A stretch of 50,594 nucleotides of DNA. Origin: Gallionellaceae bacterium (lineage in GTDB: Bacteria > Pseudomonadota > Gammaproteobacteria > Burkholderiales > Thiobacillaceae). The stretch's first letter is position 1. Each line of letters begins with the position of its first letter. Where the stretch lies: positions 1 to 50,594 of the forward strand of contig JAQTLN010000027.1 in the NCBI GenBank assembly GCA_028714875.1, in the 5' to 3' direction. This document shows positions 19,736 to 33,526 of the stretch, one piece after another. The position numbers were made by a program, and so were the translations under genes. The notes below the pieces were generated by a model. That model was not told where the DNA came from and made no database searches. It was given only the letters and a program-made list of their open reading frames with translations.

Positions 19736-20181
19736 CCTGGACTCCCCAGTTTTGCCGCATCCAGCACCACGATGGCGCGACCGCTCAACAGCACGCGCTC
19801 CCCGGCGGAAACGCTGAAGCCATAAAGGATGAGGTTGTCGTCGCCGGACAGGCGTTCCGCCGCCACGCTGAGATCGGCCGCGATGTCGTCCAGGCGCGCG
19901 ACATGCAGTTCGACCCCGCGCACGCTGGCCAGGTAGCCGGACCTGGGCGCGCTGTCGGCCGCCGCCAGCAGCCCACCATGCGCGGCCATGGCCTGGGCGG
20001 CGTACTCGATGCCGCAAACGGCGCCCAGCCGACCGTGGGCGCGCAGGGGATTGTCCGGGTCGCGGTGGCTGCTGGCCGTGCAGCGGATGTGCTCGCTGTC
20101 CCAGGTCTCGATCTGGTCCAGCAGACACATGCCGCCCTGGTGCGGGATGTGGGCGAGCAGCCAGCCCCGATCTAGCGGCAT
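19732..20181 (-). CDS. Hot-dog 3-hydroxyacyl-ACP dehydratase, ApeP-like
   Basis: A 149-residue single hot-dog protein. The N-terminal LLAHIPHQGGMCLLDQI corresponds to the FabZ/FabA entry segment. GIEYAAQAMAAHGGLLA (about 57-73) is the long central helix with the catalytic acid (Glu59). The C-terminal strands include GYLASVRGVEL. In aryl polyene systems this type pairs with a second hot-dog protein (here 31103-31447) to dehydrate the intermediates. It overlaps the chain-length-factor stop by 10 bases and the reductase start by 4. Confidence 0.85.
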   Translation of the reverse strand: MPLDRGWLLAHIPHQGGMCLLDQIETWDSEHIRCTASSHRDPDNPLRAHGRLGAVCGIEYAAQAMAAHGGLLAAADSAPRSGYLASVRGVELHVARLDDIAADLSVAAERLSGDDNLILYGFSVSAGERVLLSGRAIVVLDAAKLGSPG

Positions 20182-20969
20182 GGCTCTATCGTCACGGCCA
20201 GGCTGAGCGGTTCCAGATATTCCAGAATCACCCGCTCCGCGCGGCCGCTGGCCAAGGCTTGCAGCAGCGGCAGGCCGCGCGCTGAGGGAATCTGACGGCG
20301 CAAGGCCTCCAGGTCTGGATTCTTCAACTGGTCCACGGGCGCTTCCACCAGTTCGACCCGCAGACGGGCCAGGGAATGTGGGCCTTGCCGCGGCAGCAAC
20401 GCCAGGGCCAGGCCGAAGGCGGACGGATGCGGCCGCTTGGTGTGCAGCGGCTCCGGATAGGGCGCCTCGTAGGTCACCAGCAACACGCCGGTAGCGTCCA
20501 CGTTCACCTGTGCCAGCGCCTCCAGCAAACCCGCCGCGAAACTGCCGTCATAGGCGCACAGCACGGTGGCCGGGGTCATGGCGCCGGAGGCGATGCCCCA
20601 ATAGCCGGCCGGGGCGTTATGCACCGAATTGTGGAAGCGGGTGGGGGAAAGGTGGCGATCCTCCGAGGCCAGGGTCCGGCAGATGGCATCGCAGGTATCG
20701 CCATCGGCGCTGGAGGAGGAAAACACGGTGGCCAGTTGTCTGGCATCCAGTTGCGCGGCGGCGACGGCCTCTTGCGCCACGGCCAGGGCGATCTTGACGC
20801 CCAGACCGACGCGGCGCCGCTCTGCGGGGGGAAGCGCCATGGGCGGCGGCACGACGATGGGGCGCGGCGCGTAGTCGGCGGCTCCCGCCAGTATCGGCTG
20901 CGCCGCGATCCAGTTGTCCAGGCCCGGCCCAAGCAGGCCGACGCCGTCGAGGTAAGCGGTCAGATTCAT
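20172..20969 (-). CDS. Ketosynthase-like chain-length factor
   Basis: A 265-residue thiolase-fold protein of the Ketoacyl-synt_2 group. It contains VFSSSSADGDTCDAICRTL and AGYWGIASGAMTPATVLCAYDGSFAAGLLEAL, but no HGT or K-x4-H motif, so the Cys-His-His triad of a working ketosynthase is absent. This fits a chain-length factor that pairs with the ketosynthase upstream. The start is ATG at 20969, immediately next to the palindromic insertion; the in-frame extension to 21044 is that insertion read as protein. Confidence 0.85.
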   Translation of the reverse strand: MNLTAYLDGVGLLGPGLDNWIAAQPILAGAADYAPRPIVVPPPMALPPAERRRVGLGVKIALAVAQEAVAAAQLDARQLATVFSSSSADGDTCDAICRTLASEDRHLSPTRFHNSVHNAPAGYWGIASGAMTPATVLCAYDGSFAAGLLEALAQVNVDATGVLLVTYEAPYPEPLHTKRPHPSAFGLALALLPRQGPHSLARLRVELVEAPVDQLKNPDLEALRRQIPSARGLPLLQALASGRAERVILEYLEPLSLAVTIEPCR

Positions 20970-21118
20970 CCTGATTTGTCCATTAGCCGAGGCAGACCTG
21001 TAGCGCCGGCGTCTCGCCGGCTTCGTCCTTCTGATTAGGCCCACGAAGCCGGCGAGACGCCGGCGCTACAGGTGGGGCCGCCTCCGTAGCCTTGGCTAAT
21101 GAGCGACCTGGGTTCATC
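20965..21118. repeat. Palindromic insertion between ketosynthase and chain-length factor
   Basis: A perfect 29-bp inverted repeat (20997-21025 and 21044-21072, core GTAGCGCCGGCGTCTCGCC) lies inside outer arms CATTAGCC/GGCTAATG (20981-20988 and 21094-21101). TTCATC flanks it at 20965-20970 and 21113-21118. On the coding strand this is GATGAA, containing the start codon of the downstream gene. It is closely related to the element at 29.5 kb and lies in the same orientation to the operon. Confidence 0.75.
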
Positions 21119-22315
21119 TCAACCCGCCCTGCCCAGCACCAAGCTGCAATTGGTGCCGCCAAAACCGAAAGAATTGCTCAGCACCCGGCGCGGCGCGCTT
21201 TCCCGGTTCGCGGTCAGGTACTGGATGGGAATGCCCGGATCGACCTGACGGGTGTTGACGCCCCCCGGCAGGAAGCCGTGGCGCAGCGCCAGGGCGCTGA
21301 TGACGGCCTCCAGGCCACCCGCCGCGCCCAGGGTGTGGCCGGTCGCGCCCTTGGTCGAACTGCATGGCACCCGGTCGCCGAACAATGCCGCCACCGCCCG
21401 GCCCTCGGCGGCATCGTTGCTTGGCGTGGCGGTGCCGTGCAGGTTGATGTAGTCGATGTCGGTCGCTTGCAAGCCGGCCGCTTGCAGGGCGGCGGCCATC
21501 GCCATGCGGGCGCCCAGGCCGTCGGGATGCGGCGATGACATGTGATGGGCGTCGCTCGATTCCCCCGTGCCTAAAAGCAGCACGTCATTGGCATTCAGGC
21601 TGTCCGCCGCTCGTTCCAGCAGGATGAAGGCGGCGGCCTCGCCGATGGAGAGACCGTTGCGCTCGGCATCGAACGGTCGGCAGGGTTCCGGCGAGAGCAG
21701 TTCCAGGGAATTGAAGCCATACAGGGTGGTCAGGCACAAGGAATCCACCCCGCCCACGAGGGCGGCATCGATGAGCCCGGCCGCCAGCATGCGGGCGGCT
21801 GCCGCGAACACCTTGGCGCTCGAAGAGCAGGCGGTGGAGATCACCACCGCCGGCCCTTCCAGGCGAAAGACATGGCGCACGAAATCCGCCAGCGAATAGG
21901 AGTTATGGGTGGTGCGGTAGATGAAGTCGTCCGGCAGGGCACCACTGGCCGGGTCGCGGCGGCGATACGCCTGCTCCGCCTGCAGAATGCCGGCGGTGCT
22001 GGTACCGAGAAAGACGCCCACCCGGCGCCGGCCATGCCGGGCAACGGCCGCTTCCACCGCGACGCTGAAGCCATCCTGTTGCAGCCCCAGGAACGCCAGG
22101 CGATTGTTGCGGCAATCGTATTCGGCGAGAGACGCAGGCAGGGAGGCATCGTCTACCTTCGCCACCTCGCCAATGTGTGCATCGAGATTCCGCACCGTCT
22201 CGAAATGGCAAGCAGCCAGGCCACTATGATGCTGCCGCAATGCGGCCAGCGTGGCTTCCAGGCCGTGGCCGAGGCAACTGCTGGCGGTGAAGTGGGAAAG
22301 GTGGAGAGGGGTCAC
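21119..22315 (-). CDS. Beta-ketoacyl-ACP synthase (APE elongating ketosynthase)
   Basis: A 398-residue KAS-II-like enzyme. Nucleophile Cys163 is in ISTACSSSA, His293 in NLHGTATPSND, and Lys322 and His327 in TKGATGHTLGAAGG. SNSFGFGGTN closes the site near the C-terminus. With the following chain-length factor it should elongate the aryl primer with malonyl units. The start is GTG at 22315, and a run of 11 C (coding strand) ends two bases before it, where a ribosome site would lie. Typical aryl polyene clusters have a further ketosynthase; none is seen here. Confidence 0.93.
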   Translation of the reverse strand: MTPLHLSHFTASSCLGHGLEATLAALRQHHSGLAACHFETVRNLDAHIGEVAKVDDASLPASLAEYDCRNNRLAFLGLQQDGFSVAVEAAVARHGRRRVGVFLGTSTAGILQAEQAYRRRDPASGALPDDFIYRTTHNSYSLADFVRHVFRLEGPAVVISTACSSSAKVFAAAARMLAAGLIDAALVGGVDSLCLTTLYGFNSLELLSPEPCRPFDAERNGLSIGEAAAFILLERAADSLNANDVLLLGTGESSDAHHMSSPHPDGLGARMAMAAALQAAGLQATDIDYINLHGTATPSNDAAEGRAVAALFGDRVPCSSTKGATGHTLGAAGGLEAVISALALRHGFLPGGVNTRQVDPGIPIQYLTANRESAPRRVLSNSFGFGGTNCSLVLGRAG

Positions 22316-22555
22316 GCGGGGGGGGGGGCTCGGCTGTCCGGTCTGACTTTGCGCTGAATTCTAACTGACGACCCGGCCCCGGCCTTCTCGCCCAAGCGGG
22401 CGATCAGCATGACATCGGCAAAAGGTGGATCGCGGCGGCGGGCCGGCAAGCTGATCAGAACCGATAAAGGTTGTCAGCGCCCCATCATCTGTATGGTCTG
22501 AACGGCCACTTGCTGATTGGGATGTTCAAGGGCGAATGAGTTACGGCTCATGTTG
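22316..22555. other. Junction between APE genes and defence genes
   Basis: No clear gene is seen. The stretch contains an 11-base G run (22318-22328) next to the ketosynthase start, and a possible 25-residue frame on the minus strand (22474-22551, MSRNSFALEHPNQQVAVQTI...), which is probably a remnant or chance. Confidence 0.4.
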
Positions 22556-23053
22556 TTATGCCCCAAACAGTTTGAGCAGAGCATCTATGGTCGGCTCCTT
22601 CCCCCGACCGGCTTCTAGTCGCTCCTTGCCAAAATGTTTTTCGTAGCTCTCACGCCGCGTGGGTTCGCAGTCGAGATAGGGCGCCAACATTCGTTTCAAC
22701 ACCTTGGCCTCATCTTCAGCATGTACACCCAGCAATCGCAGCATGACGGCATCAAAACAGGGCTCGGATGCCAGCACCTGGATTTTCTTCCCCTTGGCCT
22801 GCTTGGCCACCTTCGGCGACCAATCCTTGTCGGTATCCAGCATGGCAGCCACCGTGTCATAGGCTGCGTTGGCAATCTGCTTGATCGTCCAGTCGATAAC
22901 GTGCATGGCGCCCTTGCCACGCGCGTTCTTGATGGTGACAGCCAGACCGCAGCCGCGCGAGGCATACAACTGCTTCACGTGGTTGAGGAACGCTTCTTCG
23001 TGGTACCCCTCCCCCACGATCAACAGCGTCCGCTGGGCTTTCCAATTTGCCAT
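22556..23053 (-). CDS. rloB: RloB-like protein (Toprim-like effector candidate)
   Basis: A 165-residue protein. The N-terminal LLIVGEGYHEEAFLNHV (Glu15 in GEG) and the later AAMLDTDKDWSP (Asp73, Asp75) have the G-E-G and D-x-D arrangement of RloB and Toprim-related nucleases. DAVMLRLLGVHAEDE and a basic C-terminus follow. RloB genes were first noted linked to type I restriction loci and usually accompany an RloA ATPase, as here 6 bases upstream. Related ATPase and Toprim-like pairs (PARIS, OLD-type) are phage defence systems in which the small protein is the effector. Function here is inferred. Confidence 0.72.
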   Translation of the reverse strand: MANWKAQRTLLIVGEGYHEEAFLNHVKQLYASRGCGLAVTIKNARGKGAMHVIDWTIKQIANAAYDTVAAMLDTDKDWSPKVAKQAKGKKIQVLASEPCFDAVMLRLLGVHAEDEAKVLKRMLAPYLDCEPTRRESYEKHFGKERLEAGRGKEPTIDALLKLFGA

Positions 23054-23059
23054 GTCGGA

Positions 23060-24244
23060 TCACTCGAAAACTGGCACGGCGCCATAGGCACCCGCCATGT
23101 ATTTCGCATAGAAATTGTCGTCGCTGCGGATGCCGGACACCGCATCCATACGGCTTGCCGCACTCTCGCAGTCCGTGTTCTTCTGGATCAACATCACCTG
23201 AGATTTCTGGACCAGGTTCAGCACCTCCATGGCATGGCAGGTGAACAGAAGCTGGGCCTGGTTCGGGTTGGTGGTCGGATTGGCGAACAGGTCCAGGATG
23301 GGTTCCAGCATGTGGGGATGCAGGTCGTTCTCGAATTCGTCGATCACGGCCAAGCCACCGATTTCCAAGGCCTCCAGCAGTCGCGCCAGGAGGACGAATG
23401 CACCCTGGGTGCCGCTGGACTCCAGGGCGAAAGGGAGCCGGGCCTCAATGTCATGACTCTGGTGTCTGCCAAACGGCATCCAGACTGTCTGACCGGGTTC
23501 CTGGGGGCTGTTGATAGGAACCTCCCGCAACTCAATGCCGGACAGACCGAGATCCCACGTGGAAAGCAATCGATCCATCCGCACCCGCTGATCTGGATGC
23601 TCCGAAAAATGGCGCGCGGCGACCAACATGACCTGTTCACCCATGGGCAGGCGGCCCAACACATTCACGTTGGTGACCACATAAGGCGCCACGATGCGCG
23701 TCGCCAATGGAACGCCGAATTGTGCCGCCCAGGCGATCAGCGACACATTCGGGCGAACCTTGCGCGCCTCCTGGGCGGGCAGACCGAAATCCTGCTGCTT
23801 CACCACATAGGACTTCGCCTCGGCGTCCCAGTCGCGCACGAAGACGTAGCCGAAGCGATCCCGTTTTTGGTAGAGCGCCTCGTGCAATACCCGTTCCGGC
23901 GTGCAGCGCAGCACATAGCGCCATAGCGTGCCGTCGAAATCCACCACGACCTCGAACTCACTGGGCTCATTCGGCGTGGAGAAGTGGGGCGTCACAGGAA
24001 TGCTGGCATCCGGCGGCTGTTGGAACGACTGGCCGATAAACCATGACATGAACGCCATGGGCTTCAACAAGGCCGTCTTGCCGCTGCCATTGGGGCCGAT
24101 CACGGCCATGAGCTTGGAAACCCGCTCACCTGTGGGCGTATCGGCCATCCAGTCGGTCAGTACCACCTTGCGGTTCAGCGTCAGGTCGACTTCAGTGCGC
24201 TCGCGGAACGACTGGAAGTTGGAGAAGGCGTAGCTGTGGAGCAC
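23060..24244 (-). CDS. rloA: RloA-like AAA ATPase (ABC/SMC-type, AAA15/21)
   Basis: A 394-residue ATPase. MLHSYAFSNFQSFRERTEVDL is the usual opening, followed by Walker A GPNGSGKT (50-57). In the C-terminal half are the signature-like ESSGTQGAF, Walker B AVIDEFENDLHP (about 300) and LLFTCHAMEVL with the switch His. This is the AAA15/AAA21 layout of RloA, AriA and OLD-type sensors, without a fused Toprim. It precedes rloB on the same strand with a 6-base gap, so the two should act together. An HsdS fragment lies directly upstream. A phage-sensing role is inferred. Confidence 0.8.
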   Translation of the reverse strand: MLHSYAFSNFQSFRERTEVDLTLNRKVVLTDWMADTPTGERVSKLMAVIGPNGSGKTALLKPMAFMSWFIGQSFQQPPDASIPVTPHFSTPNEPSEFEVVVDFDGTLWRYVLRCTPERVLHEALYQKRDRFGYVFVRDWDAEAKSYVVKQQDFGLPAQEARKVRPNVSLIAWAAQFGVPLATRIVAPYVVTNVNVLGRLPMGEQVMLVAARHFSEHPDQRVRMDRLLSTWDLGLSGIELREVPINSPQEPGQTVWMPFGRHQSHDIEARLPFALESSGTQGAFVLLARLLEALEIGGLAVIDEFENDLHPHMLEPILDLFANPTTNPNQAQLLFTCHAMEVLNLVQKSQVMLIQKNTDCESAASRMDAVSGIRSDDNFYAKYMAGAYGAVPVFE

Positions 24245-24334
24245 GAATACCCCCTTTAACTAACTTAATAAACAAATAATTGTAGATACTACGAGTTAGA
24301 TAAGGCTTTAACAACCATGGATATCATAGGGGCG

Positions 24335-24589
24335 CTACTTGGAAAACGCTTGCGCCAGTAACGCATTGAAGGTTGTCTGTGCCTTGGCGGTGGCGGCGGA
24401 TTGTTGGGATTGGATGGAATGAACAGCGGCGGCATGCTCGCCGAATTCCTGCTGATTGGCATGTGGCGCAACTGGCAGTGATAGACCGAAGAGCTTGCCT
24501 TGGGAGATGTTGCGCATGGATGTGCTGGTGCCACTGGAGAGCTTGCCCAATTCCCGCCGCACATGGGAAGGCTGAAAAAGTGCGTCCAT
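24335..24589 (-). pseudogene. hsdS: C-terminal fragment of a type I restriction specificity subunit (HsdS)
   Basis: An 84-residue frame: residues 14-36 (KLSSGTSTSMRNISQGKLFG) look like the end of a target-recognition domain, then LPVAPHANQQEFGEHAAAV and a coiled coil ending FNALLAQAFSK, the usual HsdS C-terminus. A whole HsdS has about 400 residues and two recognition domains; the rest is missing. Upstream, codons continue open but are not recognisable. With no hsdM or hsdR nearby this is a scar of a lost type I system, in the same orientation as rloA-rloB. Confidence 0.72.
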
Positions 24590-24923
24590 GTATGCCGGCT
24601 CGACAGGTTCAGCCCTTACACATCGCCATAACTTGTCCGGGAGCTATGTTTTGCCGTCAGTCCCGCCAATGATGGCGGTCGCACCGACTAATTTCTCCGT
24701 ATTCGCGAGCGAGAAGCACGTCCGTGCGTTGGCGTACACGAGAAAACCCGGAATCCGATTACGCTGCACCAGTCGGACATTGATCAACCCCCATTCACGA
24801 CTATTCCAGGCCGCGCCTCAACCGCGCGCGACGGGTAGTCGATTCATGCATGGCGAGTTCACTGCCCTTGAATACCGAGAAAACGGGTACGCCCCACCGG
24901 AAATTAGATGAATCGAACCAGCC
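24590..24923. other. Intergenic region, no gene recognised
   Basis: The 334 bases between the HsdS scar and the antiporter show no convincing frame or structured RNA. One edge of the lost restriction locus probably lies near 24590, where HsdS similarity stops. Confidence 0.4.
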
Positions 24924-26240
24924 ATGACTAATGCGCATTGGTTTTTACTCGTGGGCGGTCTGTTGCTCACCAGGGGTTTGACTGCTTCGTTGCTCCAGCG
25001 CCTGCCGGTCACCCCGGCCATCATCTATCTGGCGGTGGGGCTGCTGGTCGGGCCTACGGTATTGAATCTGTTTCACTTCAATCCGCTCAAGGAATCGGCG
25101 CTGCTGGAAGCGCTGACCGAAGTGGTTGTGCTGATTTCGCTGTTTTCCGCCGGCATCAAAATGCCTGTGCCGGTCAGCCTCGCCCGCTGGCGCACACCGA
25201 TTCTGTTGGCAACGGTCTCCATGGCGGTCAGCGTCGGGATGGTTGCCGCCTTCGCCTATTATTTTCTCGGTCTGCCACTGGGTGCCGGCGTCTTGCTGGG
25301 CGCGATTCTGGCGCCCACCGATCCGGTGCTGGCGACCGATGTGCAGATCCGCCATCCCGGTGACCACGACCAGCTCCGCTTCACCTTGACCTGCGAAGCG
25401 GGCATGAATGACGGCAGCGCTTTTCCGCTCGTGATGCTGGGGATGGGATTGCTCGGGCTGCACGATCTCGGTGAATTCGGCCTGCGCTGGGCGCTGGTTG
25501 ATGTGCTGTGGGCCACGCTGGCGGGAATCGCCATCGGGGTCGTGGCAGGCGCCGCGCTGGCCCATTTGGCTTGGAAACTGCGCGGTGAGTCAGCCGCTCA
25601 CACGCTCATGGACGATTTCCTCGGACTCGGCCTGATCGGTGTGGTGTATGGCTTGAGCGTGCAGGTCGATGCGTGGGGATTTCTGGCGGTTTTTTTCGCG
25701 GCCGTGGCGCTGCGCCAGACCGAGCTCAAACTCGCCGGTGCCAGTCAGGATTCCCTGAATCTGACGCAAACCGAGCGCATCGAAGCGGGAACCGCAAACG
25801 CAACGCCTGATAACGAGCCACCGCCGACCGTCAGCGGCGGATCGCTGGTCTTCAAGGAACATATGGAGCGGCTATCGGAAGTAATGCTCGTCCTGCTCAT
25901 CGGCGGCACGCTGTTTCTCGATTCCTGGAGCTGGCGGGCGGTGGGGCTGGCGCTGTTCTTGTTCATGGTCGCGCGCCCGGTCAGCGTCCTCGCCAGCCTG
26001 TGGGCTACCCGCGCTTCGTGGCCGCTACGCGGCATGGTCGGCTGGTTCGGGGTACGCGGCATCGGTTCACTGTATTACCTGATGTACGCCATTCAGCATG
26101 GTCTCCCCGAAGATCTGGCCTTGGAACTGATCCAATTGACGCTCATTGCCGTGTCGCTCTCCATTCTCTTCCACGGAACCAGCGTCAAGCCGCTGATGAG
26201 CCGCTTTTGGCGATACCGCAAGCGTCTGCCCGCGTCATAA
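24924..26240 (+). CDS. CPA1/NhaP-type Na+(K+)/H+ antiporter
   Basis: A 438-residue membrane protein with about 12 helices. LLGAILAPTDPVLATDVQI (about 127-145) and CEAGMNDGSAFP (about 156-167) carry the conserved Asp and Asn-Asp ion-binding residues of this family. GWFGVRGIGSLYYLMYA (about 373-389) is the late signature with Arg. A hydrophilic loop (about 270-310) divides the halves. The only plus-strand gene inside the split polyene operon, it probably arrived with or after the neighbouring defence genes. It converges with the deacetylase. Confidence 0.92.
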   Translation: MTNAHWFLLVGGLLLTRGLTASLLQRLPVTPAIIYLAVGLLVGPTVLNLFHFNPLKESALLEALTEVVVLISLFSAGIKMPVPVSLARWRTPILLATVSMAVSVGMVAAFAYYFLGLPLGAGVLLGAILAPTDPVLATDVQIRHPGDHDQLRFTLTCEAGMNDGSAFPLVMLGMGLLGLHDLGEFGLRWALVDVLWATLAGIAIGVVAGAALAHLAWKLRGESAAHTLMDDFLGLGLIGVVYGLSVQVDAWGFLAVFFAAVALRQTELKLAGASQDSLNLTQTERIEAGTANATPDNEPPPTVSGGSLVFKEHMERLSEVMLVLLIGGTLFLDSWSWRAVGLALFLFMVARPVSVLASLWATRASWPLRGMVGWFGVRGIGSLYYLMYAIQHGLPEDLALELIQLTLIAVSLSILFHGTSVKPLMSRFWRYRKRLPAS

Positions 26241-26268
26241 GCGACCGGCGTTCACGCCGGATGGATGT

Positions 26269-27126
26269 TCATGACTTGGAAATAGCCAGCGCGGAACGCA
26301 GGGTGATGGATTTGAGGCCGGCGGCCGCGGCGGCTTCCAGCAGGCGGGGGAGAACAGCCAGAATCACCGCTTGGCCGGCGCGGGTTCGCGCGGCGTGGCC
26401 GTCGTGCAGGAGCAGGATGTCGCCGGCGGCGAGGTTGCGGGTCAGGCGCCTGGTCACATCGTCGGCATCGCGGTTGCGGGTGTCGAAACCGCGCCGGGTC
26501 CAGCTCGCCAGATGCAGGCCGTGCCGGGCCAGGATGGGTTCGAGAAAGGGATTGCGCAGGCCGGCGGTGGGGCGGAAGAAACACGGCCGCTGGCCGGTGA
26601 TGGCGGCCAGATTGTCCTGGCCGGACGCGATCTCGTGGGCCATGCGGCGCGGCCCGAGGGTGGCGAAATGATGCTGGTGATGCTGACTGTGGTTTTCCAC
26701 GGCATGGCCGCGCCGGACGATCTCGCGGCACAACTCGGGGTGACGTTGCGCCTGTGCCCCAATGCAGAAAAAGCTGGCGCGGGCGGCATAGCGATCCAGC
26801 AGGTCGAGCACCCGCGGCGTCACTTCCGGGTCGGGGCCGTCATCAATGGTGATGGCGATATGCCCCGGCGTAGCGGCCGCCGGTAGCCGCACCCAGTTGG
26901 GGCCGAGACTCTTGCTGCGCGGCCAGAGGCCGGCGGCGCCCAGGATCAGGTGATTGGCGGCCAGCGTGCTCAGCCCCCAGAGCCACAGCCCCGGTTGCAG
27001 CGCCAGCAGCCCCAGGGTTCCGACATGCAGGATAAACGTGGCCTGCAACAGCGGCGTGGGATGCCAGCGGCGGCGGGTATGGGGGGGTGGCAAGTTCGCT
27101 GGCAAAGGCGGTGGCGGTGCCGTCAT
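26269..27126 (-). CDS. NodB-type polysaccharide deacetylase (APE cluster)
   Basis: A 285-residue protein. A proline-rich start and two hydrophobic segments (about 25-67) suggest membrane attachment, followed by a NodB domain. Its motifs are TIDDGPDPE (catalytic and metal Asp, near 95), HAVENHSQHHQHHF with the metal-binding H-x3-H, RPTAGLRNP, and LLLHDGHAART near the end. Family members remove N-acetyl groups from sugars or peptidoglycan. The start overlaps the exporter stop by 4 bases, so it belongs to this operon. It may act on the sugar added by the GT2 enzyme; that is inference. Confidence 0.88.
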   Translation of the reverse strand: MTAPPPPLPANLPPPHTRRRWHPTPLLQATFILHVGTLGLLALQPGLWLWGLSTLAANHLILGAAGLWPRSKSLGPNWVRLPAAATPGHIAITIDDGPDPEVTPRVLDLLDRYAARASFFCIGAQAQRHPELCREIVRRGHAVENHSQHHQHHFATLGPRRMAHEIASGQDNLAAITGQRPCFFRPTAGLRNPFLEPILARHGLHLASWTRRGFDTRNRDADDVTRRLTRNLAAGDILLLHDGHAARTRAGQAVILAVLPRLLEAAAAAGLKSITLRSALAISKS

Positions 27127-29474
27127 GTTCGCCGCGCCAGAATGGCGGAGAAGACCAGGGCGAGGATGGCGCCCGGGCCGACCGTGGCGCCGATGGCGTT
27201 GAGCACCGGCACGCTGGAAAAAGCAAGAATGCCGAAGCCGGCCACCGTGGTGCTGGTGGCCACTAGCAGGGAGGCCAGGGTGCGCGGCGAGAGGCCCCCT
27301 TCTTCAAGGCCCCGGTCGAAGAACAGGGCATAGTTGGAACCGACCGCCACCACCAGCAGCATGCCCACCAGATGCAGGATGGTGAGTTGCCGCCCGGCCA
27401 GGACCAGACCGGCGATGACCACGGCAACGGCCACGACCAGCGGGGCGAGGATGCGGAACACCCTGGCCGGTGAACGGGTGGTGGCGAACAGCAGGCCGAG
27501 GATGGCGGCCAGGCCGCTAAGCGAGAGCAGGATGGCCTCGCGCAGATAGCCTTGGTAAAGGCGATCGGCCTCACCCTTGATATCGACGAAGTGAACGCCC
27601 GCCAAGCCCGTCTGCGCGAGGGCGGCACGCACCCGCGCCGCGTCGAGGACGGCATGGGCTCCGGAAGCACTGGCGCGCAGCGGCAGCAGGGCCGTCCAGC
27701 TCCCCGGCGACGGCAACAGCAGGGCATCCACCCCTTCCACCAGGGAACTTCCCTCCAGGTCTTGCCGAGTCAACGGCCTCTGGCCGCGGGCCTTCGCGAC
27801 ATCGGCAAAAAACGGCTCGCAGCGATCCGGACGCAGGGGCAGATCGGCAATGGCTTCCTTGAAGCGTCGCCGCAGCTCGGCGTCGGGTGGCAGGCTCGCC
27901 AGGCGCTGACGCTGGGTCGCCTGGCTGGGTAGGTAAAAGGCGGGGCTCTCGAAGGCGTCGATCACACCTGCCGCTTCGAGTTGTCGGAGCGCCACTGACG
28001 CGTGTTCGCTGGTGGCGAGCGCCGCCTCCTGGCTGGCGGCGGTCACCACCACCAGATAGCGCACGTCCGGGGCGCCGAGGTCGGCGCGCATGCTCATGTC
28101 GAGGGCCTGATCGGCGGCGGACACCGGGCTCAGGGCCGCCAGTTCCCGATTCCACATGTGGTCGCTATTTGTCACGAGCACGACGCAGGCCGCCACAAAC
28201 AAAACCAGAACCGGCGCGCGCAGACGGCCCGCCCACGCTACCCAGACCTGCACGCGGCGACCGAAGGCGCTGAGATCGCGCAGGCGCAGGTTGACGGGCA
28301 AAAGACGCGGCAGCACGAAACGGGTGATCAGGGCGGCTGTGACTACACCGGCTATGGCGTAGAGGCCCAGTTGGGCCAGGCCGGGGAAGCCGGAGAACAG
28401 CAGGGAGGCAAAGCCGAACACCGAGGTGAGTACGCCGATGCGTATCGTCGGCCAGGAGGTGGCCACCCAGGTGGCCGTCCCACTGCTGCGCGGCTCGCCC
28501 GCCACGGCGCGTTCCGACTGCGTGAAAAGGTAGATGGAATAATCCACCGCCTCGCCCATCAGGGCGGTGCCGAAGCCGAGCGTGACGCCATGGACGACGC
28601 CGAAGCCCAGGCTGACCGCCGCCACCCCGGCCAGAGCGCCGGACAGCACGGGCAACAGGCCGAGCAGCAAAGCCGTGGGCGAACGGTAAACCAGCAACAG
28701 GATAGTGATGATGATCAGCCCGCCGAGGCCGGAGAGGGTGGCCACTTCGCCCTTGATGGTGGCGCGGGCCGTTACGGAAAAAGGCCCGGGGCCGGTTAGC
28801 GCCAGGCGCAGCTCTGGCCCGGCCGCCGCGTGGAAGGCCGCGCGGATGGCCGCGACGGCCGCTTCCTGTGCGTCCGTGTCGGCGCCATCGGCACGGGTGC
28901 GGGCCAGGAGCAGGGCACGCTGACCGTCACGGGAAACCCAGACGCCATCGGCCATTTGCGGATGCTGGCGGCTCCCCATGGCATCCAGCAGTTGCATGAA
29001 CTCGCCGGTGGGGTCGCGCGGCAACAGGGCCTTGCTGAACAGCCCGGCAGAGGTGGCCAGGAGGTCGATGCTGTCCGCCACGCCGGCACGCAATCCCGCT
29101 ACCGAGAAGCGCTCGGCATTCACCGCCGGGCTCAGCAGATAGCGGTTTTCCAACAGAATCTGGCGGTCGCGCGCCAGCCCCAGGGTCTCGCCGTTGGCAA
29201 TGTGCGGGAAGCGGGGGTCGCCGCGCAGGCGGGCGGCCAGATTGCGGGAGGCGCGGGCGCGGGCGGCCGGGTCGCCACCTTCGATGCCGATCAGGATCAG
29301 GCGAGAGGCGGCGCCGGATTTGATCTGGTCGACGAGGAGCTGCTGTTCCGGGGTCGGGCTACTCGGCAAAAAGGCGGACAGATCGGCCGTGAAGCTGGCC
29401 CGACTCACCAGCCAGACACAGACGAGCAGAAAGGCCAACCAGAGGGCGATGGCGACGCTTGCACGTCGGCTCAT
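27123..29474 (-). CDS. MMPL/RND-type exporter (ApeM-like)
   Basis: A 783-residue inner-membrane transporter in two halves, each with one N-terminal helix, a periplasmic domain and five more helices. The first half has GEAVDYSIYLFTQSER, with the proton-relay Asp. The second half has AVGSNYALFFDRGLEEGG, where Asn takes that place. In aryl polyene clusters this protein is thought to move the lipid product towards the outer membrane with the LolA-like carrier. The start is ATG at 29474 next to a palindromic insertion; the extension to 29576 is insertion sequence. Confidence 0.9.
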   Translation of the reverse strand: MSRRASVAIALWLAFLLVCVWLVSRASFTADLSAFLPSSPTPEQQLLVDQIKSGAASRLILIGIEGGDPAARARASRNLAARLRGDPRFPHIANGETLGLARDRQILLENRYLLSPAVNAERFSVAGLRAGVADSIDLLATSAGLFSKALLPRDPTGEFMQLLDAMGSRQHPQMADGVWVSRDGQRALLLARTRADGADTDAQEAAVAAIRAAFHAAAGPELRLALTGPGPFSVTARATIKGEVATLSGLGGLIIITILLLVYRSPTALLLGLLPVLSGALAGVAAVSLGFGVVHGVTLGFGTALMGEAVDYSIYLFTQSERAVAGEPRSSGTATWVATSWPTIRIGVLTSVFGFASLLFSGFPGLAQLGLYAIAGVVTAALITRFVLPRLLPVNLRLRDLSAFGRRVQVWVAWAGRLRAPVLVLFVAACVVLVTNSDHMWNRELAALSPVSAADQALDMSMRADLGAPDVRYLVVVTAASQEAALATSEHASVALRQLEAAGVIDAFESPAFYLPSQATQRQRLASLPPDAELRRRFKEAIADLPLRPDRCEPFFADVAKARGQRPLTRQDLEGSSLVEGVDALLLPSPGSWTALLPLRASASGAHAVLDAARVRAALAQTGLAGVHFVDIKGEADRLYQGYLREAILLSLSGLAAILGLLFATTRSPARVFRILAPLVVAVAVVIAGLVLAGRQLTILHLVGMLLVVAVGSNYALFFDRGLEEGGLSPRTLASLLVATSTTVAGFGILAFSSVPVLNAIGATVGPGAILALVFSAILARRT

Positions 29475-29608
29475 CCGAGATTGTCCATTAGCCAAAGTAG
29501 GCCTGTAGCGCAGGCGTCCCGCCTGCTTCGTAGGCCTGATCGGAAGGACGAGGCAGGCGAGACGCCTGCGCTGCATGTGGGCCTCCGGCTAATGGACACT
29601 CGGCTCAT
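29466..29608. repeat. Palindromic insertion with 9-bp target duplication between LolA-like and exporter genes
   Basis: Outer arms TGTCCATTAGCC (29482-29493) and GGCTAATGGACA (29587-29598) enclose inner arms around GTAGCGCAGGCGTC and GACGCCTGCGCTGC. The direct repeat TCGGCTCAT flanks it at 29466-29474 and 29600-29608. On the coding strand this is ATGAGCCGA, the first nine bases of the exporter gene; the second copy contains the TGA stop of the LolA-like gene. Removing the element restores a 4-base ATGA overlap. Confidence 0.85.
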
Positions 29609-30183
29609 GGCAAGGCGGTCTTCTGGATGCTCATCAGCGAGCGGTCGCCGTCCGCCTGTAGGATTTCCACCGCGCGGACCTCATCCTGCGAGCCATCCAT
29701 GCGGATGCGGGCGACCATCCCGCCCACTTTGGCATCCCGCGGGATCAGCACCAGGGTCCAACGCTCGCGGTCGCCTTGCAGGGCCAGGTGATAGATCCGT
29801 TCCAGCGCCTTGCGGTCGCCGGCCAGCGTGGCGCGCATGCTCTCGATCATGCCCGCCACCTCCGGGTAGTCCTTGAGTTGCAGGACATGTTTCTGCCGTC
29901 GTCGTTCGATGCTCAGAACGTCGCCGTCCAGCACCAGGGTTTCACGCTTCGGCTTGAGGGTGCGTTTCTCCAGGCGGGCGGGCGGAATGAACAGGAGCTC
30001 GCCCGACGACTCGACCGGCTGGTCCAGGATGGAAATGAATTTCTTCTCGGTGAAGCTGGCCGCTCCGTGCTTGTTGTTGGCCAACGCGGCCATGAGCTGG
30101 CTGACCGTGAATTGGGCCGCCTGGGCGGACAGGGTAAAGCCAAACAGGAGCGCGCCGAGCAGAAGTCGAATGGATCGGCTCAT
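29605..30183 (-). CDS. LolA-like periplasmic lipid carrier (ApeL-like)
   Basis: A 192-residue protein with signal peptide MSRSIRLLLGALLFGFTLSAQA. A LolA/LppX fold follows: FTEKKFISILDQPVESSGELLFIPPARLEKRTL (about 44-76) is the typical front of the half-barrel. The C-terminal strands include VARIRMDGSQDEVRAVEI. It should carry the polyene lipid across the periplasm, working with the MMPL exporter that follows. It starts within the last codons of the acyltransferase gene (4-base overlap). Confidence 0.85.
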   Translation of the reverse strand: MSRSIRLLLGALLFGFTLSAQAAQFTVSQLMAALANNKHGAASFTEKKFISILDQPVESSGELLFIPPARLEKRTLKPKRETLVLDGDVLSIERRRQKHVLQLKDYPEVAGMIESMRATLAGDRKALERIYHLALQGDRERWTLVLIPRDAKVGGMVARIRMDGSQDEVRAVEILQADGDRSLMSIQKTALP

Positions 30184-31106
30184 GATGTCTCCGTCGGCGG
30201 CCGCCAGAAATCGAAGAAGTTGAACCAGTTGAATGGCGCCGCGCGACAGTGACGTTCCAGGCAGCCTGCATAGGCGGCAACCGCATCACTGACGGCGGCG
30301 CTGCGCGCCTTGCGCTCGATGTCGGTGAAATCGGCCAGGCGCTCGAAATGGATGGCGTAGCGGTTGCCGCCCAGATAGAGGCCGCAGATGAACAGTACCG
30401 GGCGCTTGAGGATGGCCGCCAGACGCATGGGGCCGACCGGGAATGCCACTGTCTGGCCGAGGAACGCTACCGGCTGGGTGGGGTTCTGGGCCAGGGTGCG
30501 ATCGCCCATCATGCCCACCACCACGCCTTCATCCAGCCGTTCCTGTACCTGGAGCATGGAATCGAACTGGCCCAGCGGAATGACGTCCAGCATGGCGGAC
30601 GGATTGATGGCGGCCAGGGCGGCGTTGATCTTATGGGCATTTTCCACGTACATGGCCATGGCTATCTTAAGGTCGGGCTGGCGCCGGCCGAGGGCGCGTA
30701 TTACCTCGAAGCTGCCCAGGTGGGCGCCTATCAGGAAGGCGCCGCGTCCGGCGGCCAGCACTTCCTTGACGACGTCCTCTCCTTCCACCTGGATATCGAA
30801 CTGATCGAAGCGGTCGTTGAGCAGGTAGACCCGGTCATGGATACAGGAAGCGAAACTGTGGAAGTGCCGGAACTGTTCGGCCAGCCGGGGCGGCCGCCCC
30901 AGGGCACGCCGCAGGTAGGCGCGCGAGGCGTTGCGGGCGGCCGCTGCGAAAAGCAGGAAATAGAGGCTGATGCCGACCAGCACGACCCGTGACACAGGCC
31001 GTCCCAACGCCAGGGACAGCCAGGTCATCGCGCGCAGCAAGACCAGGCTGCCGCGTTCCGGTTGTTTCCTCCATTCGGACTGAAGGGCGGGATCGGCTGG
31101 GTTCAC
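30180..31106 (-). CDS. LpxL/HtrB-like acyltransferase (APE cluster)
   Basis: A 308-residue enzyme of the lipid A acyltransferase family. The HX4E motif is IGAHLGSFEV with His129 and Glu134. An N-terminal hydrophobic segment (about 40-56) anchors it. GMMGDRTLAQNP and PVGPMRLAAILKRPVLFI are further family patterns. In aryl polyene clusters such enzymes are thought to join the polyene to a glycerolipid or sugar core. Both ends overlap neighbours by 4 bases. Confidence 0.87.
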   Translation of the reverse strand: MNPADPALQSEWRKQPERGSLVLLRAMTWLSLALGRPVSRVVLVGISLYFLLFAAAARNASRAYLRRALGRPPRLAEQFRHFHSFASCIHDRVYLLNDRFDQFDIQVEGEDVVKEVLAAGRGAFLIGAHLGSFEVIRALGRRQPDLKIAMAMYVENAHKINAALAAINPSAMLDVIPLGQFDSMLQVQERLDEGVVVGMMGDRTLAQNPTQPVAFLGQTVAFPVGPMRLAAILKRPVLFICGLYLGGNRYAIHFERLADFTDIERKARSAAVSDAVAAYAGCLERHCRAAPFNWFNFFDFWRPPTETS

Positions 31107-31447
31107 GAAGCCGCCTCTTCGAACGCGGTGAAGGCGAAGATGCCGCTCGCGACCACCCGATTATGGGCGGGGTCGGCGGCCACCACCTCGAAGCGGAACA
31201 CGCCGCTCGCCGTGGCGGCATAGTCGAGACGCAGGGCCTCGCCCGGACTGACCGGACTGAGAAACTTCGCCGACCGGATCTGGCCGCCGGCGACCGTCAG
31301 GCCTTGCCGCGCGGCCAAAGCATGCAGTGCCTCGTCCAGCAGCACCACGCCGGGCAGGATGGGCTGGCCAGGGAAATGGCCGGCATAGGCGGGGTGATCG
31401 GCCGCGACGGATAAGGACAAGGACGAAGGCAGGGACAGGTCGGTCAT
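31103..31447 (-). CDS. Hot-dog 3-hydroxyacyl-ACP dehydratase, ApeI-like
   Basis: A 114-residue single hot-dog protein with the catalytic motif YAGHFPGQPILPGVVLLDEAL: His24 and Glu39. The C-terminal strands (FRFEVVAADPAHNRVVASGIFAF) complete the fold. It is the likely partner of the dehydratase at 19732, as ApeI and ApeP form a heteromeric dehydratase in characterised systems. Short length and a 4-base overlap at each end fit an operonic subunit. Confidence 0.87.
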   Translation of the reverse strand: MTDLSLPSSLSLSVAADHPAYAGHFPGQPILPGVVLLDEALHALAARQGLTVAGGQIRSAKFLSPVSPGEALRLDYAATASGVFRFEVVAADPAHNRVVASGIFAFTAFEEAAS

Positions 31448-32848: not shown

Positions 32849-33526
32849 CTAGCGGGGTGGGAGGGAAGCGGCGCGAGGCGTGGCTGGGGTTTTCCAGTAG
32901 GCGAGGATGCCATCCATGATGCTGTGCTTTTCCAGTTGCGGCAGCTTGCGCAGGCGGACCAGATACTCGGCGGCAAACATCAGCAGGACCAGCGGCAAAG
33001 AGAGGAAATTGGCGAAGACCGACCAGGCTTCGATGGGCGCGAACAGGAACAGCAGCGTCGAAACCAGGCTGACCGTCAGAAAAAACAGCGTCCAGGCCAG
33101 GGTGACCTGGCGGGTATAGCGCACCAACTCGGAAGTGAGCCCGCCGTGCACGACTTCGGCAAAGCGGGTGCAGATGGGCTGTCGCCCACGCGCCAGGGTG
33201 GCGCCGAATACCGCCGCCAGCATGACATTGGTGCCTGCGTGCTGGAGGAAATAGACCCAGCTGAAATTCCGTTCCAGGGCGCCCCAGAATCCCCACAGCA
33301 GCAAACCCACACCGGCGCACAGCGGCAACATGGCCAATCGTCTGGGTGAGCGCCAGGCCAGCAACAGCAGGATGCTCAGGGACGGCGCTAGCGAAACGGC
33401 GACCCCCATGGCCGGGAAGCGGGTCGCCGCGGAAGTAGCCGCGCTGTAATGGGCCAGCACGGCATAGCCGATGACCCCGGCGGCGATGACGGTCCAGCGG
33501 ATCGCGCCGGCCAGGGTAAAGCTCAT
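32849..33526 (-). CDS. COG4648-type membrane protein (ApeG-like)
   Basis: A 225-residue protein with about seven membrane helices (TVIAAGVIGYAVLAHY; SLSILLLLAW; LPLCAGVGLLLWGFW; NVMLAAVFGATLA; TLFFLTVSLVSTLLFLFAP; VFANFLSLPLVLLMFAAEYLV). GRQPICTRFAEVVHG and YTRQVTLAWTLFF are conserved in the unnamed COG4648 proteins of aryl polyene clusters. Its task is unknown. It starts inside the last codons of the ACP gene and ends 25 bases before the ligase. Confidence 0.82.
   Translation of the reverse strand: MSFTLAGAIRWTVIAAGVIGYAVLAHYSAATSAATRFPAMGVAVSLAPSLSILLLLAWRSPRRLAMLPLCAGVGLLLWGFWGALERNFSWVYFLQHAGTNVMLAAVFGATLARGRQPICTRFAEVVHGGLTSELVRYTRQVTLAWTLFFLTVSLVSTLLFLFAPIEAWSVFANFLSLPLVLLMFAAEYLVRLRKLPQLEKHSIMDGILAYWKTPATPRAASLPPR

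Follow-up and report, generated by a model that had tools for sequence, protein, structure and literature searches.

The locus raises the question of how a palindrome of about 130 bases came to lie between two consecutive genes of a cluster with neither protein changed. In the window, that is, the whole stretch of 50,594 nucleotides that was analysed, TCGGCTCAT was found at 29466-29474 and at 29600-29608, on either side of a strong palindrome that separates a LolA-like gene from an MMPL-type exporter gene. The sequence-only reading of this junction had taken the palindrome for an element inserted at a stop/start overlap, with the 9-base repeat as its duplicated target. A third exact copy of TCGGCTCAT is located where the LolA-like gene itself starts (30175-30183), so that the flanking 9-mer alone is weak evidence; the nature of the repeat was settled by copies of the element elsewhere in the genome. 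When the element and one target copy were removed, the ATGA overlap of the two genes was restored, in line with the earlier proposal that this would resemble other junctions of the cluster. Four more 4-bp overlaps between consecutive cluster genes follow from the gene coordinates (30180-30183, 31103-31106, 31444-31447 and 33523-33526), and the one at 30180-30183 reads ATGA. Both proteins are intact at the LolA-like/exporter junction despite the insert. The coordinates of all features are given in Table 1.

Table 1. Features of the element, of its core and of the second element in the cluster (positions of the window)
Feature	Position	Strand	Remarks
Ketosynthase-like gene, downstream of second element	20172..20969	-	Pfam Ketoacyl-synt_2, 98.3 bits
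Target duplication of second element, TTCAT (coding ATGAA)	20965..20969	.	Contains ATG of gene 20172-20969
Second element, same kind, CCGG core variant	20970..21112	.	143 bp
Target duplication of second element, other copy, TTCAT	21113..21117	.	
Ketosynthase gene, upstream of second element	21119..22315	-	Pfam Ketoacyl-synt_C, 101.9 bits
MMPL-type exporter gene	27123..29474	-	Downstream of element; Pfam MMPL, 81 bits
Target duplication copy 1, CTCAT (coding strand ATGAG)	29470..29474	.	Contains exporter gene's ATG
Very probable MITE of IS1380 type, near-palindromic	29475..29603	.	129 bp; assigned from ends, copies and duplication
Terminal inverted repeat CCGAGATTGTCCATTAGCC	29475..29493	+	19 bp
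REPIN-like core	29505..29574	.	70 bp; two GTAG-type REP hairpins, inverted: 29505-29531 (+), 29548-29574 (-)
Terminal inverted repeat	29587..29603	-	17 bp, two bases missing
Target duplication copy 2, CTCAT (coding strand ATGAG)	29604..29608	.	Contains LolA-like gene's TGA
LolA-like gene	29605..30183	-	Upstream of element; Pfam LolA_3, 81 bits

The genome (G000) comprises 4,083,417 bases in 54 contigs. The element was found to be multi-copy, with at least 79 match rows in these 4.08 Mb (40 of 129 candidates scored), a figure in which palindromic places were often counted on both strands. Within the element, TGTCCATTAGCC is present at 29482-29493 and in inverted copy at 29587-29598, a 12-mer whose count alone does not exceed chance at two mismatches, and two GCAGGCG/CGCCTGC hairpins were detected against a shuffle mean of 0.07. 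When the arms were followed outward from 55 REP-pair cores, a few of which are chance pairs, the consensus of the terminal inverted repeat (TIR) extended to CC(C/G)AGATTGTCCATTAGCC. The right end of the window element is without two bases, which displaced its apparent boundary, and of the two copies of the extra TCGG in the 9-mer, one turned out to belong to the end of the element and the other to the host DNA. The element is small and multi-copy and carries no transposase gene, as is usual for MITEs. A search of the window with Rfam gave no match at gathering scores.

The flanks of the copies defined the target duplication. In the own genome, 16 copies with both ends within four errors were drawn from 26 in which both ends could be found leniently. 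Matching at 4-5 of the 5 flank bases was observed for 15 of them, and at all five bases for 10, while the maxima reached in 20,000 shuffles were 14 and 9, respectively; one base of register freedom was allowed in data and shuffles alike. The same pattern was obtained with the 59 TIR-paired elements of the loci compared: all five bases agreed in 36 of them (shuffle maximum 12), and four or five in 48 (shuffle maximum 29). Over these 59 elements the flanks matched in 81-86% at exactly five positions and at about the unpaired level on either side. The target motif is N-T-N-A-N. Since T and A stand at positions 2 and 4 in nearly all copies, these two say little on matching; the informative positions are 1, 3 and 5, with unpaired matching of 0.41, 0.26 and 0.47. 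Eleven of the 59 elements match at fewer than four target bases, and these include the window element, which is mis-registered by its deletion, as well as pairs that are doubtful, among them L019, L065 and L190. At the window element the duplication is read as CTCAT on both sides. The 9-base repeat noted earlier is therefore present, but the duplicated target within it is 5 bp and not 9. Tabulation of the copies, which had been put forward as a check, did not reveal a family without flanking duplications.

Comparison with related clusters had likewise been suggested, and it gave a clear result. The nearest orthologues of the exporter gene, in G018 (87% identity) and G007 (78%), are preceded by an ATGA overlap and no insert. 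Among the best 80 of 558 orthologous loci, 70 show an overlap of 4 bp and six an overlap of 1 bp, and four were unreadable; an insert was found at 0 of the 76 readable junctions, and relatives without the overlap, the outcome that would have spoken against the insertion, were not seen. On the sequences compared, the gene overlap is confirmed as the ancestral state of the junction, and the orthologues without an insert argue against a conserved role for it. The statement that the element spaces the two genes by about 130 bases and changes neither protein agrees with both the intact genes here and the overlap in relatives. So does the central claim of the sequence-only reading, a palindromic element inserted at a stop/start overlap with target duplication, which is borne out by the multiple copies, the TIRs and the matched 5-bp flanks.

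A second element of the same kind is located in the same cluster. The stop of the ketosynthase gene upstream of it lies one base from its target, and the counterpart site in G018 is empty, with the stop TGA, one base and then ATGAATCTGACC. Between the exporter and ketosynthase genes (22316-27122), an AAA_21 ATPase gene (23060-24244) and a RloB-like gene (22556-23053) were observed. Judged by match coordinates, the exporter gene and the second ketosynthase gene are about 6.2 kb apart in this cluster, compared with 1.3 kb in G018 and 2.6 kb in G007. Because the gap is larger here than in these two genomes, this cluster may have gained a block that includes a possible defence pair.

In order to classify the landing sites, each element and one target copy were removed in silico. 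This could be done for 44 of the 59 elements; ten with fewer than 4/5 matching bases were left out (L016 was kept by means of a gapped alignment), as were five with flanks shorter than 500 bp. Genes were called with a simple codon-usage script that was checked on the cluster of the window only. Of the 44 landings, 24 are intergenic, 10 have a stop in the target, 3 have stop and start (ATGA), 2 a start and 5 were called inside genes. The same loci contain 3431 other N-T-N-A-N sites, 2784 of them inside genes. Outside coding sequence, 15/39 elements landed at gene boundaries compared with 96/647 sites (odds ratio 3.6, p = 0.0005), and 13/39 had a stop in the target compared with 69/647 (p = 0.0002). 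For the ATGA type the values are 3/39 and 11/647 (p = 0.04). The boundary test was designed after the data had been seen, the control sites are not independent, and the first form of the test counted the two window elements that had prompted it. Without these two, the values are 13/37 for boundaries (p = 0.003), 12/37 for stops (p = 0.0005) and 2/37 for the ATGA type (p = 0.15). The lean to stops and boundaries stands. The bias of the copies to gene junctions that had been expected is therefore seen as an enrichment of boundary landings, but exact ATGA overlaps are too few for a special preference once the window elements are left out. L267 is likely a further ATGA case, the gene caller having set its start 21 bases upstream. 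The motif itself makes such landings tolerable, since T-N-A gives TGA or TAA when read on one of the strands and N-T-N-A-N also accommodates ATGAN; for the same reason the duplication keeps the stop, the start or both intact.

The inner core of the element has the layout of a REPIN, with two GTAG-tagged REPs in inverted orientation. At up to three mismatches the core REP occurs 73 times on one strand of the genome and 64 times on the other, and its reversed control 0 times. Cores of the CCGG variant are often without outer arms, as read off the arm alignment and uncounted. The same outer ends were found to enclose other contents as well: a GTAGGGTGCGC dimer in L267 and in L162 (a Thiobacillus bin), a GTAGCCCGGATGG palindrome in L257, the CTCTCCCGC/GCGGGAGAG types in L249 and L250, and other palindromes elsewhere. 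The shell at L233 1426-1570 (G006) is a hybrid, in which a GTAGGGTGCGC REP dimer occupies one side and the GTAGCGC type the other, and in some shells (L279, L293 and kin) no REP was recognised. Palindromes are also met outside such ends. In 0.395 Mb of G007, 8 of 18 had no end-like sequence within 150 bp, and in 0.385 Mb of G012, 11 of 16, on a background of 16-20% of random windows for this test. Several naked GTAGGGTGCGC dimers were seen in G017; since the 11-base pattern gave 16 matches there against 13 in the control, this reading rests on the dimers as printed.

Shortened shells were detected too. Shells of 64 bp with most of the core missing are present in G006 (L253 1511-1574, L254 1481-1544 and L263 1508-1571); their targets match at 5, 4 and 4 of 5 bases, and collapse of the palindrome in assembly is possible. 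In 111-bp shells of G011 and G013 the targets match at 4-5 of 5. The own genome contains a 65-bp shell without REP core (L079 1494-1558, C16), in whose target, TTCAT/CTCAT, the stop of a gene is held. From the other palindromes in the same shell and the shortened shells between matching targets, we infer that the ends move and that the REP is cargo. That IS1380 shells act as vehicles for REP dimers is plausible, if slightly less than probable. The REPs may have entered by insertion into the loop of a shell, or shells may have formed around them.

The likely partner was recognised by its ends. The end sequence, searched at one mismatch in 399 genomes of the order, gave matches in 16. Two complete insertion sequences (ISs), L278 (1493 bp) and L280 (1492 bp), have ends identical to those of the window element at 15-17 of 19 bases and perfect 5-bp duplications, ATTAA and TTAAT. 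The transposase of L278 belongs to the IS1380 family (NF033539, 266.8 bits, cut-off 180; Pfam PF13701, 184.7 bits). In G020, of the same genus, two contigs share their first 127 bp, at the end of which stands CCCAGATTGTCCATTAGCC, 18/19 identical to the end of the window element; this IS is known from the two contig ends only. The 127-bp stretch is identical at 116 of 127 positions to an IS end in G071, beside which a partial frame matches IS1380 with 49.2 bits, below the cut-off. Altogether, 15-18 of 19 end bases are shared with IS1380 ISs, and the IS1380 derivation proposed for the element is based on this likeness of the ends and on the length of the duplication.

Within the genus, an IS1380 gene over the cut-off was found in 4 of 23 genomes, and 11 of 23 contain DNA that matches the element or, in some cases, the core only. 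No autonomous copy was found in the own genome, nor an IS1380 gene by protein or over the cut-off (best match weak, 25.4 bits against 180), so that the source of the transposase was deduced from relatives. For the IS1380 genes of G008, G017, G021 and G022 and the fragments in G011 and G001, no convincing end pair was found. The end of the G020 IS gave no match in plasmids, and the end sequence is present on two viral contigs. End-like sequence on three contig ends of G017 was rejected as a candidate, the outer flank being the same 14 bases in all three. A further MITE family of 205-207 bp with very similar ends was observed in G056 (L293, L299, L303) and G183 (L294, L300, L304), two well-assembled genomes of the order with 15+14 and 10+9 pattern matches to the end.

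The element is very probably a non-autonomous MITE of IS1380 type. This is suggested by the similar inverted ends of 17-19 bp, the 5-bp N-T-N-A-N duplication and the orthologues that lack the insert and keep the overlap. An IS1380 transposase, from outside the gene content of this assembly, would have excised the element at its ends and inserted it into a staggered break around ATGAG, whose five bases would then have been doubled when the gaps were repaired. Holding the upstream TGA and the downstream ATG, the duplicated ATGAG would let both proteins survive, and the junction would become a 130-base spacer folding as one long hairpin. The inner inverted GTAG REP pair would be carried as cargo. 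The lean to stops would arise from the motif, which gives TGA or TAA on one strand, together with selection against landing inside genes.

Three other explanations were weighed. The reading that two unrelated gene starts, or a duplication of 9 bp, account for the flanking 9-mers around an element ending at TGTCCATTAGCC is extremely improbable. The 9-mer does flank the palindrome, and its copy at 30175-30183, at another MSR-starting gene, demonstrates that it can recur; however, the 59 elements match at five positions and not nine, the TIR consensus runs past TGTCCATTAGCC, and the sites are empty in relatives. Movement as a REPIN by a RAYT (REP-associated tyrosine transposase), with incidental outer arms, would account for the layout of the 70-bp core, its high copy number and the cores without recognisable arms, and the genome does have five Y1_Tnp genes. 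None of these five loci, however, has the core REP within about 1.5 kb on each side (≤2 mismatches), the 5-bp duplication sits at the outer ends and not at the REP core, and matching targets likewise flank shells that have lost most of the core, which makes this explanation very unlikely.

The remaining alternative takes the shell for a regulatory hairpin selected at the junction, as attenuator, mRNA stabiliser or ratio setter, its mobile origin being secondary. The RNA folds are indeed very stable at both junctions of the window: -100.6 kcal/mol at the LolA-like/exporter junction, where shuffles average -65.0 (z -9.0), and z -9.3 for the transcript of the second-element junction. The presence of two copies within one gene cluster points in the same direction. 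Against it, none of the readable orthologous junctions has the insert and no promoter-like or terminator-like site was found in 29300-29800, so selection for such a role appears unlikely. The predicted mRNA stem closes CCGAG to CUCGG, with the upstream UGA at one foot and the downstream AUG at the other. Coupling of the two genes may thereby be lost, be kept across the stem or give way to separate initiation, and mRNA stability or the carrier:exporter ratio may change, as the sequence-only reading had suggested. A fold-back insertion might then be nearly invisible to translation, the ribosome restarting across the closed stem and the genes staying coupled, although we regard this as decidedly improbable. 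If it were true, shells of the IS1380 type that carry REPs would form a general class of insertions able to enter overlapping genes without loss, since the target motif duplicates ATGAN.

The IS1380-type MITE would suggest a rule for the entry of small mobile elements into dense operons, in which the landing repairs itself because the target motif bears a stop codon on one strand and is compatible with ATGA overlaps. It would also offer a testable origin for REP dimers in longer palindromes, since the ends of a MITE of IS1380 type can make up the outer palindrome. Different genomes appear to have different REP cargo in such ends; if true, this would connect two classes of repeat that are usually considered separately. 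With a filled junction in this genome and an empty one in relatives, an experiment on how a hairpin between coupled genes affects translation is ready at hand.

Several parts of this picture are already known, namely IS1380 elements with 5-bp duplications, bacterial MITEs and REP dimers in longer palindromes. In the open-licence papers searched, no IS1380-derived MITE with REP cargo was found, nor a description of a stop/start overlap restored by a duplication. The ends of ISEcp1 begin CCnAGATT. Such ends and 5-bp duplications are common to the IS1380 ISs, ISEcp1 included, and the window element; unlike these ISs, the latter has no transposase gene, is about 130 bp long and palindromic, and has a REP cargo. 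One duplication given for ISEcp1, of the IS1380 family, is TATGA (PMC2887853), which departs from N-T-N-A-N when set in the same register.

MITEAba12, MITEPye1 and Chunjie are described as bacterial MITEs, small and non-coding, with IS-like ends and target duplications (PMC6382973, PMC11578231), all of which holds for the window element. The partner of MITEAba12 is ISAba12, with 9-bp duplications, and that of MITEPye1 is IS1182, whereas the window element very probably belongs with IS1380. Chunjie also resides in an operon, undisturbed according to the title of its report, while one copy of a phosphate operon is disrupted according to the text of the review (PMC10969869). The Tn3-derived TIME, described with ends of 38 bp and duplications of 5-6 bp (PMC4133298), was rejected as a relative, since the ends here are 17-19 bp and IS1380-like, compared with about 38 bp of Tn3 type.

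GTAG-tagged REP hairpins that form inverted pairs in many copies are described as REPINs or REP dimers (PMC3116915, PMC3733652), and the inner core of the window element shares these traits. REP dimers within longer palindromes are reported for A. variabilis and H. neapolitanus (PMC3733652, section 7); that section treats the outer palindromes as targets, does not identify IS ends in them and leaves them unexplained. Unlike the REPINs, the core in the window is housed in a shell of IS1380 type.
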